This document shows, piece after piece, positions 57,966 to 64,000 of a DNA stretch of 64,000 bases (positions within the stretch are counted from its first letter, which is position 1; every line of letters begins with the position of its first letter). Below the pieces are notes generated by a model that was given only the letters and a program-made list of their open reading frames with translations, did no database searches and had not been told where the DNA came from. The stretch is from Dyadobacter sediminis (GTDB lineage Bacteria > Bacteroidota > Bacteroidia > Cytophagales > Spirosomataceae). The translations under genes were made by a program, and so were the position numbers. The stretch is taken from assembly GCF_005860765.1 (NCBI RefSeq), contig NZ_VCEI01000011.1, positions 248,001-312,000 of the forward strand, written 5' to 3'.

Positions 57966-58358
57966 TTAATTTATGGAAAGCTTCATTTTAAGGCTTGCGA
58001 TGTCTAAAGGCTTGGGAAGCAGATCAATAATATGTGAACTGGCCCTGGCCTTTTCGATATCGCGTGAATCAATTGTGGAGGAAAGCATGAAAATCCGGAT
58101 CTTTTCCTTCAGAAAGTCAGGTGCCGCATCATATGCTTCTATGAACTCAAAGCCGTTCATATCCGGCATTTGGAGATCCAGCAATATAACCGTTTCCGGC
58201 AGAGCAGTGGCCTCGTCCAGCAGGTATTTCAAGGCGTCCCGCGCAGAATTGAATGTCCGCACAGCATTTGAAATGCCGCTTTTCAGAAGAAACTTCTCAT
58301 AGATCAACAGATCGAATGCGCTGTCATCAATCAATAAAAAGTTGAACAGTGCGCTCAT
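57966..58358 (-). CDS. Single-domain response regulator (REC)
   Basis: The 130-residue receiver domain: acidic pair D11-D12 in LLIDDSAFD, phosphoacceptor D61 in VILLDLQMPDMNG, S94-like switch in MLSSTIDS and K116 in LPKPLD. No output domain, so it works as a phosphorelay intermediate or by protein contact. Last gene of the operon; its ATG overlaps the stop of the REC-kinase gene by 4 bases. Confidence 0.92.
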   Translation of the reverse strand: MSALFNFLLIDDSAFDLLIYEKFLLKSGISNAVRTFNSARDALKYLLDEATALPETVILLDLQMPDMNGFEFIEAYDAAPDFLKEKIRIFMLSSTIDSRDIEKARASSHIIDLLPKPLDIASLKMKLSIN

Positions 58359-59455
58359 GACGGTTTGTTTTGTATGGAAGGAATATTGATCTCGAATCTG
58401 CTCCCTTGTCCCGGCTGCGATTGTACATGGATTTCTCCGCCCAGTTTGCTGATGGCTTCATGCACAATGTACAATCCGATTCCCGAGCCGCTGTTTGTGG
58501 CACCCGCACGGTAAAACATTTTAAAAATCTTGTCCTGGTCTGCCTCCTTGATCCCGAAGCCATTGTCTTCTATAACAATCTTGGCATGCGAAGTAGTGCA
58601 TTTTACCGACAGACGTACAAAAGGCTGTGGCTTGGCCGGATCCTGAAACTTTATGGCATTGTTGATCAGATTGTTAAAGATAATCCGCAGTTTCATAACA
58701 TCCGACATAAATACGCCGGACTGGTCTATTTCGGTAGTAAAATGTAGATTTCCGTACTCGGGCAAATATTTGATCGTCGCCAGAACTTCGGTAATCAGTT
58801 CTTCAAAACTAATGCTCGTTACAACCGGCACGCCTCTTGCATTTTTGTAATAATCAATGATATTGATAATAAAGGTATCCAGTTTCTTGACCGACTGCCG
58901 AATCAGCTCCAGGTATTCATTCTGGGATTTTACGTCATCTTCTATCAGCGCGAGGTTCACAATGCCGAGTACGGACATCAGAGGCGCCCGCAGGTCATGT
59001 GAAGCGCTGTAAACGAATTTGTCCAGTTCTTCATTGGCCTTCTGAAGCTCCATGTTGCGTTGTTTCAGGTCTTCCCGCGTTTTGTAGATATCATAGGCGT
59101 GGGTGATGGCATTTTCCACATATTTGTAATCCCACGGCTTGTCTATAAACCTGAAAACCTCTCCTTTGTTAATTGCGTCAATGGCTGCGCCTATGTCCGT
59201 ATGCCCGGTGATCAGAATCCGGATCGGCTTGGGATAGCGCGTCCTTATCTTCTCAAAAAACTGTACGCCTGTCATGATCGGCATGCGCTGATCGGCCAGA
59301 ATGATACAGAAATCCTTGGTTTCCAGAATTTGCTCGGCTTCCACTACGGAAGGCGTAATGGTGATATCATACTGCTTGCGAAAAGAAGCTTTGAAGGAAT
59401 GCAGATTGTGCTCCTCGTCGTCAATGTAAAGTATTGAAATGGATTTATTGCTCAT
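58355..59455 (-). CDS. REC-histidine kinase hybrid
   Basis: The 366-residue cytoplasmic protein: N-terminal receiver (LYIDDEEHN, D55 in ILADQRMPIMTG, FIDKPWDYKYV) followed by a coiled linker, HisKA with H152 in SASHDLRAPLMSV, and HATPase (NNLINNAIKFQDP, VIEDNGFGIKEAD, GSGIGLYIVHEA). It should receive phosphate from the upstream kinase or be regulated by it and pass it to the REC protein downstream. Its start overlaps the preceding gene by 11 bases. Confidence 0.93.
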   Translation of the reverse strand: MSNKSISILYIDDEEHNLHSFKASFRKQYDITITPSVVEAEQILETKDFCIILADQRMPIMTGVQFFEKIRTRYPKPIRILITGHTDIGAAIDAINKGEVFRFIDKPWDYKYVENAITHAYDIYKTREDLKQRNMELQKANEELDKFVYSASHDLRAPLMSVLGIVNLALIEDDVKSQNEYLELIRQSVKKLDTFIINIIDYYKNARGVPVVTSISFEELITEVLATIKYLPEYGNLHFTTEIDQSGVFMSDVMKLRIIFNNLINNAIKFQDPAKPQPFVRLSVKCTTSHAKIVIEDNGFGIKEADQDKIFKMFYRAGATNSGSGIGLYIVHEAISKLGGEIHVQSQPGQGSRFEINIPSIQNKPS

Positions 59456-61619
59456 TGAATTCTTGGATTGGGCGCATTTTACGTTTGACAGGAAGTGTAA
59501 TCAGGAACTCGGTCCCTTTTCCAACTTCGGTATTTACCTGAATGTTTCCCTGATGAACTTCGATAATTTTGAATACAATTGAAAGGCCCAGACCTGTACC
59601 GTCGCCAACCTGTTTGGTAGTAAAAAAAGGTTCGAATATTTTGGCGCGGACTTCGGGTTTCATGCCGGGGCCATTGTCACGCAGGGAAATTGCGATGTGT
59701 TCAGGATCCATCAGCCACGATTTTACCCAGATGGTCGGTTTACTGTTTTCATGTTTTTCTTTTAAAAGGGCATATATGGAGTTGGTCAGTATATTCATAA
59801 AAACCTGATTGATCTTACCTGCATAGCATTCGATGCTCGGGATATTTCCAAGGTCTTTGACCAGCTCAATTGAATTTCCCATCTGGTAATTCAGGATAAT
59901 CAGCGTGGATTCAATTCCTTCGTTGATGTTGGCAAGATTAAGGTCCGCTTCGTCCACTCTCGAAAAGATTTTAAGCCCTTTTACAATTTCGACCGTTCGG
60001 CTCGCACCGTCTTCCATTCCTTTCAGAAGCGTACCCAGTTCCGTTTTGATGTAGTCCAGATCCAGTTCTTCTTTCAGCTGCTCAATTTCGTTGATTTTGT
60101 TTTGCAGGCTTTCTATGGAATCCACCTGTCTGATGTCGTCGTACGAGTCCAGGATTTCCAGTACATCGTCAATGTCGCGCCGCAACGGCCTGATATTTGA
60201 GCTCACAAAATTGATCGGATTGTTGATCTCGTGCGCAATGCCTGCCGTCAGCTGACCGAGCGATGCCATTTTTTCGGAATCGATCAGCTGGGTCTGTGTA
60301 TCTTTCAGCTGTGTGAGTGCCGTATTGAGTTCTCTGTTGGCAAATTGCAGTTCCGCTGTCCGCTCGTTAACGCTTTTTTCGAGAAAGGCATTTTGTTCCA
60401 GGATGATTTTCTCGTTTTCCATGGATACACGCAGTGCCTGTGCCTGCGATTCTTCCCGTTCCCTTTTAAATATATTGATTTTGTCGGCCAGTGCAATGGA
60501 AAGCAATACAACTTCCATAATGGAACCAAGCTGCATGGTGTAAGTGGTCAGCGCATTGTACGGCAGAATATTGATGTTCCGCAACACCAGCAGAAACAGT
60601 CCGAGCAAAAAGAGGGTCCATGCAGTAAGGAACAGTTTGGCCGGACGGTAATTTTCTTTGGAAAGCTTGAAGCCCACGATGAACAATCCAACGGCACCGA
60701 CCACGCCGGCAATGTCAACGGCTCTGTAACTGAGCAGTTCGAAGCCGGCCAGGTTCAGCAATCCTGTCGATGAATACAATGCAATGATTACATTGATGAT
60801 GATGATCCCGAACGGCCATTTTTCCCTTAACTGGAGAAAATTCTTTACGAAGAGCATGGCGAATATTCCCGCGAAGCCCGAAAACCAGACCGTTGCTACC
60901 GCATTGAACTGAGGTGAATTCGGCCAAATGTACTTGAAAGCATAGCCTGAAAGCGCCGTTTGCGCTAGTCCGACAGAGAGAACGTAAAGCACATAGAACA
61001 GGTAACTTTTGTCGCTGGTGGAGAAATAGATGAAAAGGTTGTACAAAACCATCACGATGATGATACCGGTAAAAATACCGTTGATGGTTTCGGACAGCTG
61101 CGATGATTCCAGAAAATTTTCCTGATTCCGGAGAATCATTGGCAAAATAACCTGATTGGAACCTTTAACGCGCAGATAGTAGCATTTTTGATGATCCGGT
61201 TCGATTTCCAGCCTGAAAATCAGGTTCTGATGCTTGACTTTTCGTACATTGAAATTGTCATACTCATGATATCTGATAGATTGGGTTTTCTTCCCGTTCA
61301 ATTCCAGCAGCTCGCAGTCGCGGATCATCGGGTGAGCCAGTTCAAGGTACAGGTCCGAATTGGATGTTTTGTTGGCAAGCGTAAACCTGATCCAGAAAAT
61401 GGATTGGCTTAGTCCCATATTCGGCGTGTTGTCCGTGCTTTGCCTGAAATCCTTTTCTTTGACAACCTGGTTGAAAGTCATTTTGCCGGACTTATCCTCA
61501 AATATTTCAAGGTACTTACCGATTATGATGTTACCGCCAGTAAAATTTACGGTATCTCCAAAGACGGCGTAACCCTTGGAAATGAACATCAAAACGAATA
61601 GGTATCGGGCCAGTTTCAT
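59445..61619 (-). CDS. 7TMR-DISM sensor histidine kinase
   Basis: The 724-residue membrane kinase: signal peptide, an extracellular jelly-roll sensing domain (7TMR-DISMED2-like, about 25-175: [34 protein letters not shown]), seven transmembrane helices to about residue 390, a coiled coil, then HisKA with H462 in [15 protein letters not shown] and HATPase ([35 protein letters not shown]). DISM domains usually bind carbohydrate or other small ligands. Start overlaps the upstream gene by 4 bases (ATGA). Confidence 0.93.
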
Positions 61620-62317
61620 AAAACTCCAATCTTCATATCAAGTTCATAATGCAATGCTATTTCGCCTTTCGGACCTTTTTCCAGCGCAAACTGAACAGGA
61701 TTTTCTCTTAAATCAAGTATTCTCTCTTTTTCTTCTGCATTTGCAAACGGCAGTTGTTTCAGGTCGTTCACAATAATGGCTGTTGCAATAAGTCCTTCTT
61801 TGGGGTAATAAAATGCGCCATTCTCGCCCAGATCCCGGATGATTTCGAATCCGATTCGGAGGCACTGCCGCAAGGTAGGAGGCGAACAGAGTGCAAGCAG
61901 ATAATCTACACCAATCTGTGAAGTGATGGCTACTCCGATTCTACCCAGAAAAATGCTTCCGATTCCATATCCCGCGACTTCCTTGCTGTTAAAAAGACCA
62001 CAAAATTCCGCAAGCTTGTAATTTTCAATGTTCTGTATGTACGGATATATCCTTGTGTCTTTTTTTGCAATTGCGCCTTCCATGGGTAATTTCATTGTTT
62101 CATTGCGTATCTGGATTCTGCCGCCGCCAAAAATTTTTTCTCCATCCTCGGATTCTACGATAATTACATACGTATTCGGATCGTAAAGCCAGTCAAGATT
62201 GGCAGACGTCACTTGTTTCACACCGAATGCTTCCAATACTTTCCGGTGTTCATCCACGTACCTCTTACTGGTTTCAACATCGTCAGGTGCCTTATATGCT
62301 CGGATTTTGGCTACCAT
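61616..62317 (-). CDS. GNAT-like acyltransferase, FeeM/autoinducer-synthase-like
   Basis: The 233-residue protein shows a GNAT-like fold: NTYVIIVESEDGEKIFGGGR, then LAEFCGLFNSKEVAGYGIGS and IFLGRIGVAITSQIGVDYLL. The E/C-G-L-F pattern and GIGSIF fit the acyl-ACP-using N-acyl amino acid or homoserine lactone synthases more than ordinary acetyltransferases. Identity is moderate and the product unknown. It overlaps the upstream gene by 1 base (TAATG) and the downstream kinase by 4 bases, so expression is tightly coupled. Confidence 0.6.
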   Translation of the reverse strand: MVAKIRAYKAPDDVETSKRYVDEHRKVLEAFGVKQVTSANLDWLYDPNTYVIIVESEDGEKIFGGGRIQIRNETMKLPMEGAIAKKDTRIYPYIQNIENYKLAEFCGLFNSKEVAGYGIGSIFLGRIGVAITSQIGVDYLLALCSPPTLRQCLRIGFEIIRDLGENGAFYYPKEGLIATAIIVNDLKQLPFANAEEKERILDLRENPVQFALEKGPKGEIALHYELDMKIGVL

Positions 62318-64000
62318 TAAATTGTGTTGTTTACCATAAACAAGATTTCATCTAATGGATGTGGGGCTGTCTGGAGTAAAGGTTTTTCTTCTTTTGAAAC
62401 TTTCAGGATTAATAGATCGCCTGACTGCTCACCGGGTTCCATGACTGCGTGAAACCGGTCCTGCAACTCACGCAATTTTTTCTTTTCGGCATCGCTGAGG
62501 CCATCTCCGGATTCCATTCTTGCAAAGAGGAACAGAGGTGACAGCAAAGGCTGAAGGGTCAGGCCCAGTTCTTCGGCGCGGAGCCACAACCGCTGCGCCG
62601 CAATCCCTCCTGAAAAAAAAGGCTGATCCGCAGCCTTCGGTAATCTTACAACAGCAATGCACGGCGCAGTGCCGACGGCATGCTGCACACTTTCAACCAG
62701 CATGTTGCCACCTCCGATTGTTTTTACTGCATGGGCTACTTTCCTGTCACGCATGATGGCCAGTGCTGCAAGCTGTGCGGGACTGTTTCCAAATGAAATG
62801 AAACTGTTCCGGCCAAAAGTAGTCACCTGCTCCGCTGCGTCATCCGTGTTCCTTTCAAAAAAATCATAATGGCCATTGTCGTTCAGCATCATAATGAGGT
62901 TGCATTCGCCAATTATTCTGCCGAGTCTGTCCATTTTGTCTCTGTCTGTAATGAACTGCAATCCTGTATCGCTGACACTTTCTACGGCATGCTTCAGCGA
63001 CTGGTATGCACTGCTATCCGGCCGGAAAAGCATATCCTGCCCGGAGTCCGTAAATGTCGTTATCTCAAATTCCTCCGGTTCTGTGCTTGCACGGATCTGT
63101 TCCGGCATCTGCGGAGTGTCATTTTTGGCAGTAAAGCGGACAACGGCAAGTAAATCCGGATTGTCCGCCAACGGCGCAAACCGGGTTTCTGTTCGGTAAC
63201 CCAACTTCATGCATTCCATGATTACATTCTCATAGGCAGCGCCGAGTGCAAGATGAGCCGCCATGTTGTTATAGTTTGCAAAAGAGTAGGAGCGGAACGT
63301 ATCGTGAAACAAGTGAAGCCGCCCGTTCCGGAAAAGCCATTTCCATGGATAATGATTGCCCAGCGACTGCAAGCCCGTTCCGGCTTCTGCAATCTGCCTG
63401 ATATCGGCTTCGGAAGGCGTTATTTGATGAGGATGCTCAGGCAGCTTATCTGCCGTTTCAATGGCGGCCGCCAAATCAAATTTCTTGTTCGGATTACTAT
63501 AAACGGCTGATGTACTGGCAGGAAGTTTATTGGATACAATCTCTTCCAGATCTACATAATACCTACCCGAATCTGTAAACTGGCTCAGAAGTATTCTCCG
63601 GCACACGTCTGTTACCACTCCGCCGCCCAGAGTTACAGCACTTGCAAGCTGAGGCCATGTGCTGATACTTTGGCCTACTTCCAGAAGTGATGCCCGCCCG
63701 CGGTGCGAACTTTTCATCGCATCAATTATTTTCATGACCAGCGGCACCCGGTCGCCGGGGCTTATATTTTTAAGCTTTTCACGCGGAATGCCGTTCAGTA
63801 ATCCGTGCAGGATCGGCCTTTCCTCAAGCAGGTCAAATCTTTCCACATCCAGCATTCCGCGGTCACTGGTTTCCATTACGACGGGAATGGAAAGGCTTTT
63901 GGCAATTTCCCGGGCATAAATCTTTATTTCCAGATCATCGCATTCATCCACCAGAATGTCCAGCTTGCCGTGATCGGTCATAAATCCCATTATATTTTGA
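62317..64000 (-). CDS. ThiF-nitroreductase fusion (Rv1355c type), 5' end outside window
   Basis: The frame is open to the window edge, at least 561 residues. The visible N-terminal part is the second half of a ThiF/E1-like domain (KLDILVDECDDLEIKIYARE, VVMETSDRGMLDVERFDL, LGGGVVTDVCRRILLSQ). From about residue 170 on it is a nitroreductase-like flavin domain (LFHDTFRSYSFANYNNMAAH, LALGAAYENVIMECMKLGYR, SFISFGNSPAQLAALAIMRD, RLWLRAEELGLTLQPL). Proteins with this order are known as the Rv1355c family, function unknown. The upstream ATP-binding half must lie beyond 64000. First visible gene of the signalling operon. Confidence 0.78.
   Translation of the reverse strand, partial: QNIMGFMTDHGKLDILVDECDDLEIKIYAREIAKSLSIPVVMETSDRGMLDVERFDLLEERPILHGLLNGIPREKLKNISPGDRVPLVMKIIDAMKSSHRGRASLLEVGQSISTWPQLASAVTLGGGVVTDVCRRILLSQFTDSGRYYVDLEEIVSNKLPASTSAVYSNPNKKFDLAAAIETADKLPEHPHQITPSEADIRQIAEAGTGLQSLGNHYPWKWLFRNGRLHLFHDTFRSYSFANYNNMAAHLALGAAYENVIMECMKLGYRTETRFAPLADNPDLLAVVRFTAKNDTPQMPEQIRASTEPEEFEITTFTDSGQDMLFRPDSSAYQSLKHAVESVSDTGLQFITDRDKMDRLGRIIGECNLIMMLNDNGHYDFFERNTDDAAEQVTTFGRNSFISFGNSPAQLAALAIMRDRKVAHAVKTIGGGNMLVESVQHAVGTAPCIAVVRLPKAADQPFFSGGIAAQRLWLRAEELGLTLQPLLSPLFLFARMESGDGLSDAEKKKLRELQDRFHAVMEPGEQSGDLLILKVSKEEKPLLQTAPHPLDEILFMVNNTI

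Follow-up and report, generated by a model that had tools for sequence, protein, structure and literature searches.

Among the closest described enzymes are those of the TrzAS, OxzAB and TyzACB systems. TrzS, a member of the Rv1355c family, closes N-acyl-tryptophan into an oxazolone ring and desaturates it (PMC12856293), and TyzA was reported to have the FeeM / acyl-homoserine-lactone-synthase fold (PMC10404671). The physiological role of oxazolones is called a major unresolved question by the TrzAS authors in the Discussion of PMC12856293. According to published work, oxazolones do not survive treatment with acid or methanol.

The window analysed here, a stretch of 64,000 nt from Dyadobacter sediminis, encodes related enzymes together with three signalling proteins. 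All five genes are carried by the minus strand with junction overlaps of 1, 4, 11 and 4 bases. The features are as follows.

57966..58358, minus strand: gene 5, single-domain REC protein of 130 aa (Pfam Response_reg, 47.8 bits)
58355..59455, minus strand: gene 4, soluble REC-histidine kinase of 366 aa (Pfam Response_reg, HisKA, HATPase_c)
59445..61619, minus strand: gene 3, 7TMR-DISM histidine kinase of 724 aa (Pfam 7TMR-DISMED2, 7TMR-DISM_7TM, HisKA, HATPase_c)
60480..61520, minus strand: sensor half of gene 3 (DISMED2 at residues 34-163 and 7TM at 178-380, Pfam ranges)
60390..63282, minus strand: block with a separate history, comprising FDO, acyltransferase and sensor half (sliding windows, distance matrix, trees and AU tests; borders approximate)
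61616..62317, minus strand: gene 2, predicted GNAT-fold N-acyltransferase of 233 aa (TrzA/OxzA/TyzA/FeeM-like)
62317..64000, continuing to ~64611 outside the window, minus strand: gene 1, ThiF-FDO (PRK07877, Pfam ThiF)
62527..63366, minus strand: FDO (nitroreductase-superfamily) part of gene 1 (NF047509 match; no R-x-[TS]-N-[RK])

Judging from the sequences and a structural model, we consider it probable that this operon is a self-contained small-molecule signalling unit, in which the product of the enzymes would be sensed by the unit's own DISM kinase. Literature searches returned no description of such a unit.

The first-pass annotation had described a five-gene, fully overlapping operon. 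Its overlaps and gene order were confirmed, but gene 1 extends beyond the end of the window, a divergent sixth gene exists and the enzyme slot is swapped elsewhere. The complete start of gene 1 is found ~610 bases past base 64000, hence most of the ThiF ATP-binding part is located outside the window. The complete protein has 764 aa from an ATG (L004:7318-9612) or 771 aa from a TTG (up to 9633). A divergently oriented REC gene of 155 aa follows 360-380 bp further upstream (L004:9996-10463). It is present in all 48 Dyadobacter loci, as well as in 55 of the 63 from other genera, and belongs to the unit as its sixth gene. The flanks behave differently: nine of the ten L004 non-module ORFs of at least 150 aa, at least two of which are probably spurious, are unmatched among the 63 non-genus loci at E 1e-30, and the remaining one has a single match. 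As gene order is kept across genera and the flanks are not, the operon is more than a chance arrangement. A promoter/terminator scan gave 12 and 6 sites compared to 12.4 and 6.9 in shuffled sequences and thus no excess.

The complete gene 1 protein matches the NCBIfam model PRK07877 'Rv1355c family' over its full length with 691.6 bits (cut-off 476), and its FDO part matches NF047509. An assignment as molybdopterin or thiamine enzyme was rejected since the protein falls well short of the cut-offs of the MoeB/ThiF models but passes that of the Rv1355c model. The ThiF residues G131, G135, N163, R166, K178, D218 and D225, presumably including catalytic ones, are kept in at least 90% of 25 aligned fusions, a Rhodococcus member included. 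The intact FDO site of the Rv1355c / TrzS family is missing from the window protein. It lacks the conserved Arg motif R-x-[TS]-N-[RK], to which we ascribe a putative role in that site and which is present in 32 of 46 Dyadobacter loci and 28 of 33 fusions outside the genus. The 14 genus loci without the motif, the window among them, have an FDO that looks relaxed. By sequence, the nitroreductase-type domain of the window may be inactive, hence desaturation may fail in this strain.

Gene 2 has no match in Pfam or NCBIfam at E 0.001, and neither a PDB sequence search (no credible match) nor a plasmid search for its GNAT was productive. Its predicted structure is GNAT-like with the FeeM / acyl-homoserine-lactone-synthase fold, and in a Foldseek search with this model ranks 1-17 were occupied by FeeM and acyl-homoserine-lactone synthases, with 17-20% identity for the FeeM chains and 12-15% for the latter. 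A plain acetyltransferase was set aside on these ranks, despite two plain GNATs that equal FeeM by Z in the structure comparison. The model agrees with the earlier suggestion that gene 2 resembles small-molecule signal synthases. Frames of 957 aa containing the GNAT were considered as fusions and rejected, as the three that were fetched (L081, L084, L131) are separate genes with a 4-base overlap. As in TrzAS/OxzAB, the N-acyltransferase gene adjoins the ThiF-FDO gene, here with an overlap of 1 base. Based on family assignments and the modelled fold, the product of genes 1 and 2 is probably an N-acyl-amino-acid oxazolone.

Gene 3 passes the Pfam cut-offs for DISMED2, 7TM, HisKA and HATPase and is thus a 7TMR-DISM sensor kinase, in agreement with the extracellular DISM domain and seven helices proposed initially. 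Its H-box AHE[IVL]NNP is found in 46 of 46 genus loci and 85 of 85 outside. Of the 46 intact genus loci, all carry the H-box SHDLR[AS]P in gene 4 and 45 carry DQRMP; among loci of other genera, only 42 of 81 fit a relaxed H-box pattern.

Gene 2 is present in 48 of 48 Dyadobacter genomes and in 63 of 345 genomes of the class sample. Beyond the genus, the gene set has a scattered distribution over the phylum. Outside the genus 103 distinct loci were collected, of which 85 were counted as complete; the other 18 have less than ~3.5 kb on a side. These 85 loci are a biased set drawn from random phylum and class samples plus the 80 top hits from a motif scan. In all 85 a DISM kinase is located downstream of the acyltransferase. 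Hence the situation in which the enzymes usually occur without kinases is the opposite of what is seen for the acyltransferase; the sole exception named is one ThiF and GNAT pair without kinases in the genus (L091). The five-gene order expected in other Bacteroidota holds for the kinase and for the REC-kinase (81 of 85; 46 of 48 in the genus), but the single-domain REC is found in only 29 of 85 (47 of 48 in the genus) and the middle enzyme varies. It may be ThiF-FDO, ThiF, a methyltransferase or an enzyme of the cresol/vanillyl-alcohol-oxidase type, and in many genera FDO is missing or another enzyme stands in place of ThiF. Three TrzS-family plasmid loci of Actinomycetota, inspected out of 13 records, have no annotated kinase nearby in the incomplete PLSDB annotation. 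DISM paralogues outside the module were viewed as well (L354 and L355, and L312-L324 with ~1.5 kb per side), and an acyltransferase was not found beside them.

Within the genus, histories were compared for 46 of 48 loci, leaving out L139 (contig end) and L157 (broken genes). FDO, acyltransferase and the sensor half of the kinase share one history, while the kinase half, REC-kinase, REC and the flanking genes share another. According to sliding windows, trees and the distance matrix, the upstream ThiF part has a mixed history. GNAT distances correlate with those of 7TM (r 0.92), ED2 (0.86) and FDO (0.78) and much less with the kinase half (0.43). The kinase half in turn follows the REC-kinase (0.90) and less so the sensor-half parts (0.53 and 0.43), and the flanks follow the kinase half (0.72-0.81) rather than the GNAT (0.46-0.57). 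Only one of 17 well-supported GNAT splits conflicts with the sensor tree compared to eight with the REC-kinase tree, and none of 15 well-supported kinase-half splits conflicts with the latter. Kinase plus REC-kinase data reject two sensor clades in AU tests (p-AU 1.5e-52 and 1.8e-51) for groups chosen after the trees had been seen. This mosaic is the pattern expected of a signal synthase and its receptor, and the common history of acyltransferase and sensor half would link the putative product to its receptor. A directly co-evolving pair of FDO and DISMED2, the fastest-changing parts with mean identities of 0.46 and 0.47 in the genus, was rejected, as their partial correlation with GNAT and kinases controlled is -0.007 and the FDO motif is frequently lost.

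Since GNAT adjoins the sensor half, a recombination tract could join both without any function. FDO, acyltransferase and sensor half are contiguous and the upstream ThiF part is mixed, as such a by-product of one tract between well-conserved ends would have it. Moreover, the pattern is missing across genera, where in 81 of the 85 loci (four without recognised REC-kinase were left out) GNAT-sensor correlates at 0.60 and does not exceed GNAT-kinase half (0.66) or GNAT-REC-kinase (0.69). However, the sliding windows place the tract end where 7TM meets the kinase half, which is also the end of sensor specificity, and the GNAT follows 7TM more closely than the equally adjacent FDO. The sensor tree also tracks swaps of the middle enzyme best, with 13 changes of type compared to 15 for GNAT, 18 for REC-kinase and 19 for the kinase half (shuffled means 32-33). 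We consider a functionally uncoupled tract very unlikely.

The kinases could also turn on the enzymes in response to an outside or stress cue, the product being an ordinary lipid or antimicrobial that they do not sense. Kinases beside biosynthetic genes are common. Furthermore, antibiotics induce oxazolone production in Proteobacteria, as stated in PMC12856293. Yet such regulation gives no reason for the acyltransferase and the sensor half to share a history apart from the kinase half. Nor does it predict the outcome of a sensor search in the class sample, in which the best 46 matches were all located at acyltransferase loci (two lists compared by eye); below 186.8 bits module sensors are mixed with unrelated DISM kinases. 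This explanation appears unlikely.

A product sensed as a self-made antimicrobial for self-protection, for which lantibiotic autoregulation is a model, would equally yield co-inherited product enzymes and sensor. The N-acyl tyrosines of Stieleria are indeed antimicrobial (PMC12856293). Against this, a search of the module rows with module profiles, other neighbours being partly annotated, recognised neither a conserved transporter nor a conserved immunity gene. We regard self-protection as somewhat less plausible still than the cue-driven scheme.

The signalling unit, in contrast, agrees with the families, the folds and the common acyltransferase/sensor history, which support the initial proposal that ThiF-nitroreductase and GNAT make a compound sensed by the kinase. 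From these we infer its product, export, sensor binding, phosphate flow and biological role. The GNAT enzyme would acylate an amino acid, probably an aromatic one, giving an N-acyl amino acid. The ThiF domain would activate the carboxylate with ATP and close the oxazolone ring, which an intact FDO domain would then desaturate. The product may then act outside or within the membrane on DISMED2 and 7TM of the kinase from the same operon, from which phosphate would pass to the receiver domain of the REC-kinase, to the single-domain REC and possibly to the divergent REC. As none of these three carries a DNA-binding domain, an unlinked output regulator would be needed. In other genera the replacement enzyme may cap or oxidise a similar N-acyl amino acid by methyl ester formation or aryl oxidation, so that ligand and sensor would differ together.

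Taken together our data suggest a new family of chemical signals both made and sensed by bacteria. A wider proposal, which we see as evenly balanced, is a phylum-wide autoinducer family: N-acyl-amino-acid derivatives (mainly oxazolones, with methyl esters or oxidised forms elsewhere) would be read by 7TMR-DISM kinases, and strains of the genus would retain the kinase relay but trade blocks of matched synthase and sensor, much as in pherotype switching. If so, this would give an answer to what oxazolone lipids do biologically, which their discoverers regard as unresolved (PMC12856293). The signalling unit itself, if true, would bring Bacteroidota one more class of signals and one of receptors, and its exchangeable enzyme slot would supply a naturally occurring set of ligand-receptor pairs. 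Electroporation has been used to transform one Dyadobacter strain (PMC9430724). Oxazolone-type enzymes locked to an apparently co-varying receptor kinase make signalling directly testable in an environmental genus.

The peptide quorum systems agr and comQXP have variable specificity groups. There as here, synthase and sensor half are variable while kinase half and regulators are conserved; here, however, small-molecule enzymes take the place of the peptide, and the specificity groups are putative ones derived from sequences. With FeeM and LuxI-type acyl-homoserine-lactone synthases gene 2 shares the predicted fold, but here it accompanies a membrane kinase and a ThiF cyclase. The Phc system of Ralstonia (phcBSRQ) likewise combines a synthase, a sensor kinase, a soluble REC-kinase without DNA-binding domain and a single REC in one operon (PMC8578825). 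PhcB is a methyltransferase, an enzyme type also used by some loci here, and genes 3-5 resemble phcSRQ in architecture. Phc uses a fatty-acid methyl ester in contrast to the putative acyltransferase and ThiF chemistry. A 7TMR-DISM sensor and a divergent second REC further set the present locus apart. In TrzAS, OxzAB and TyzACB an N-acyltransferase gene also adjoins an Rv1355c-family ThiF-FDO fusion, and evidence from fold and family agrees. The published clusters, however, are described without kinases in the introduction, Results, Discussion and bioinformatic methods of PMC12856293, and the word 'kinase' occurs 0 times in the texts of PMC12856293 and PMC10404671, whereas here the two enzymes consistently share an operon with a receptor kinase and its relay.

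The last 6 kb of the window comprise five genes on the minus strand which overlap by 1, 4, 11 and 4 bases, as the first-pass annotation had claimed for a five-gene operon. Gene 1 codes for a fusion of a ThiF domain with a nitroreductase-superfamily part (FDO) and gene 2 for a GNAT-fold acyltransferase. The signalling domains assigned to the others are likewise returned by Pfam: gene 3 is a 7TMR-DISM kinase (DISMED2-7TM-HisKA-HATPase), gene 4 a REC-kinase (REC-HisKA-HATPase) and gene 5 a small REC. Gene 1 extends past the window edge to a full length of 764 aa (ATG start) or 771 aa (TTG start). Upstream of it lies a further gene:

L004 (the window's own locus):9996-10463, beyond the window edge at about 64995-65462 in window numbering; divergent to gene 1; 155-aa REC gene (Pfam Response_reg)

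It belongs to the unit, being found at 48/48 loci of Dyadobacter and 55/63 loci outside. The window's genome amounts to 6.2 Mb in 33 contigs. The genes at window:53270-57183, which resemble an arabinose operon (kinase, isomerase, epimerase), adjoin the unit in most Dyadobacter genomes.

Relatives of gene 2 occur in 12/296 genomes of a phylum sample, in 63/345 genomes (40/178 genera) of a class sample and in 17/150 genomes of a family sample, all 17 being Dyadobacter. Within the genus 48/48 genomes carry one, in a single case split over two frames. Searching 84,980 named genomes yielded 312 stretches encoding such relatives. The best 80 of these 312 were used and include Dyadobacter, Belliella, Algoriphagus, Litoribacter, Chitinophaga, Sphingobacterium and other genera, the closest named relative among them being that of Dyadobacter flavalbus NS28 (97%). 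At the Dyadobacter loci the DISM gene and the divergent REC are always present (48/48 each), the small REC in 47/48 and the REC-kinase in 46/48.

Outside Dyadobacter 103 distinct loci were obtained, of which the 85 with about 3.5 kb or more on either side were counted. Enzymes usually found without the kinases had been named as an argument against the unit; for the acyltransferase, a DISM kinase follows downstream on the same strand at 85/85 loci. The gap between both genes is ≤60 bases in 68 of them, and in the other 17 more sequence separates the two, usually an enzyme gene. The proposed gene order recurs elsewhere with respect to the DISM kinase and the REC-kinase (81/85), less often with respect to the small REC (29/85), and the enzyme slot varies; the 155-aa REC is found at 80 loci. 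The D. flavalbus genome (G423) has a second ThiF and GNAT pair (L091:8378-10306) with no module kinase detected within 20 kb around it. At another Dyadobacter locus (L157, genome G463) both the acyltransferase gene and that of the REC-kinase are fragmented, with the remaining unit genes present. A record labelled Azovibrio (L262) also contains the unit; this label is probably a binning error, since its acyltransferase is identical to that of the Bacteroides-labelled L263.

The complete gene 1 contains the Pfam ThiF domain and, at 691.6 bits, exceeds the cut-off of 476 for NCBIfam PRK07877 'Rv1355c family'. Rv1355c is TrzS, which by ATP-dependent cyclisation and subsequent O2 desaturation generates N-acyl tryptazolone from tryptophan N-acylated by TrzA (PMC12856293). 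Gene 2 has no family match in Pfam or NCBIfam. Its structure model (19 sequences, pLDDT 89.3) was compared with solved structures following its suggested likeness to signal synthases, and FeeM indeed ranks first: Foldseek ranks 1-17 contain only chains of FeeM or of acyl-homoserine-lactone synthases, and by Z FeeM is highest (16.9), with two ordinary GNATs less than 1 unit behind at fewer residues covered. FeeM and BjaI are also the nearest folds to TyzA of the tyrazolone-producing TyzACB (PMC10404671). Based on the family of gene 1 and the FeeM-type fold of gene 2, both genes are most simply predicted to constitute an N-acyl-oxazolone pathway. The motif R-x-[TS]-N-[RK], presumably important for FDO, is kept in 32/46 Dyadobacter loci and 28/33 fusions outside. 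It is absent from the FDO part of the window protein (window:62527-63366). Hence the product of this strain may not be desaturated, the desaturase step possibly being lost.

The middle enzyme at the 85 loci is a ThiF-FDO fusion (41), ThiF without detected FDO (33), a class I methyltransferase (4), an FAD oxidase (4) or an ICMT-type membrane methyltransferase (2), with none recognised at one; a dimerising-type O-methyltransferase occurs in L188, outside the counted loci. Pfam, with an additional NCBIfam search, gives ICMT, Methyltransf_25/11, Methyltransf_2 and FAD_binding_4 as families in this slot:

L018:8703-9344, L169:8467-9237 and L188:891-1955; methyltransferases of three kinds
L264:9694-11304, also L266, L274 and L276; FAD enzyme between acyltransferase and kinase

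The nearest solved structures to the FAD oxidase are p-cresol methylhydroxylase and vanillyl-alcohol or eugenol oxidases. These act on 4-hydroxyphenyl substrates, a hint that the acyl amino acid may derive from tyrosine. One N-acyl amino acid either cyclised, methylated or oxidised would give related yet distinct ligands. The sensor tree needs 13 changes of enzyme type, the acyltransferase tree 15, the REC-kinase tree 18 and the kinase-half tree 19, all far under shuffles (25 or more); the apparent margin separating the trees is modest.

The sensor half of gene 3 comprises DISMED2 and 7TM. In the class sample, where sensor matches and acyltransferase loci were matched up by eye, the 46 best sensor matches (at least 186.8 bits, query included) all lie at acyltransferase loci; the top match elsewhere reaches 182.3 bits, below which both kinds are intermixed. 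Among the family-sample genomes, the 17 module loci take the first 17 places (at least 351.9 bits; next 195.1 bits). The inspected DISM paralogues outside the module have no acyltransferase nearby.

Pairwise distances at 46 intact Dyadobacter loci separate two histories. FDO, acyltransferase, DISMED2 and 7TM correlate at 0.71-0.92, the kinase half, REC-kinase, REC and divergent REC at 0.86-0.93, and the groups with each other at 0.38-0.57. ThiF is intermediate. Gene 3 switches history at residues 400-440, where 7TM gives way to the kinase half. Consistently, 17 strong acyltransferase splits are contradicted once by the sensor and 8 times by the REC-kinase tree, and 15 strong kinase-half splits 0 times by the REC-kinase and 6 times by the sensor. 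Two sensor clades are rejected by kinase-half and REC-kinase data (p-AU 1.5e-52 and 1.8e-51, the two tests that gave results, on groups chosen post hoc from trees already seen). The two distance groups persist in the 32 motif-positive loci alone. Four flanking genes correlate at 0.59-0.84 with the kinase group versus 0.43-0.67 with the FDO/acyltransferase/sensor group. As the unit occupies a single site beside araA- and araD-like genes (44/48 and 46/48 Dyadobacter loci), the blocks were exchanged without leaving this site. Between the two closest loci (L004/L075) four-fold sites differ by 0.30-0.48 in all parts, but amino acids by 0.26 in FDO and DISMED2, compared with 0.03 for the acyltransferase and 0.01 for the kinase half. 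FDO and DISMED2 thus change fast and are not merely imported; in FDO this may be due to relaxed constraint just as well as to diversification.

Other data argue against coupling. At 81 loci outside Dyadobacter the acyltransferase correlates with the sensor at 0.60, no more than with the kinase (0.66) or the REC-kinase (0.69). FDO and DISMED2 show no correlation after controlling for acyltransferase and kinases. Three inspected TrzS-family plasmid loci of Actinomycetota have no annotated kinase; a GGDEF gene lies close to one of them, and cyclic-di-GMP genes are described beside trzAS (PMC12856293). Rv1355c/TrzS-family genes are found on actinobacterial plasmids in 13 records (Rhodococcus, Mycolicibacterium, others).

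Taken together, the predicted link of product and receptor is unusually well supported. The unit is best read as a synthase, its dedicated receptor and a relay of three proteins, whose output regulator would be encoded outside: Pfam finds no DNA-binding domain in the four REC-bearing or kinase proteins, so the output must lie elsewhere. LvrB is a REC-controlled kinase activated when its REC is phosphorylated (PMC13269768). The literature searched, covering few subscription papers, describes no operon that unites 7TMR-DISM kinases with a synthase of oxazolones or N-acyl amino acids; a 2026 quorum-sensing review lacks the words 'oxazolone' and '7TMR', and the main texts of PMC12856293 and PMC10404671 lack the word 'kinase'. 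Compared with known systems, gene 2 resembles FeeM and acyl-homoserine-lactone synthases in fold, gene 1 shares its family with TrzS of TrzAS, and the series of signal synthase, kinase, REC-kinase and REC is the same as in the Ralstonia phc operon (PMC8578825).
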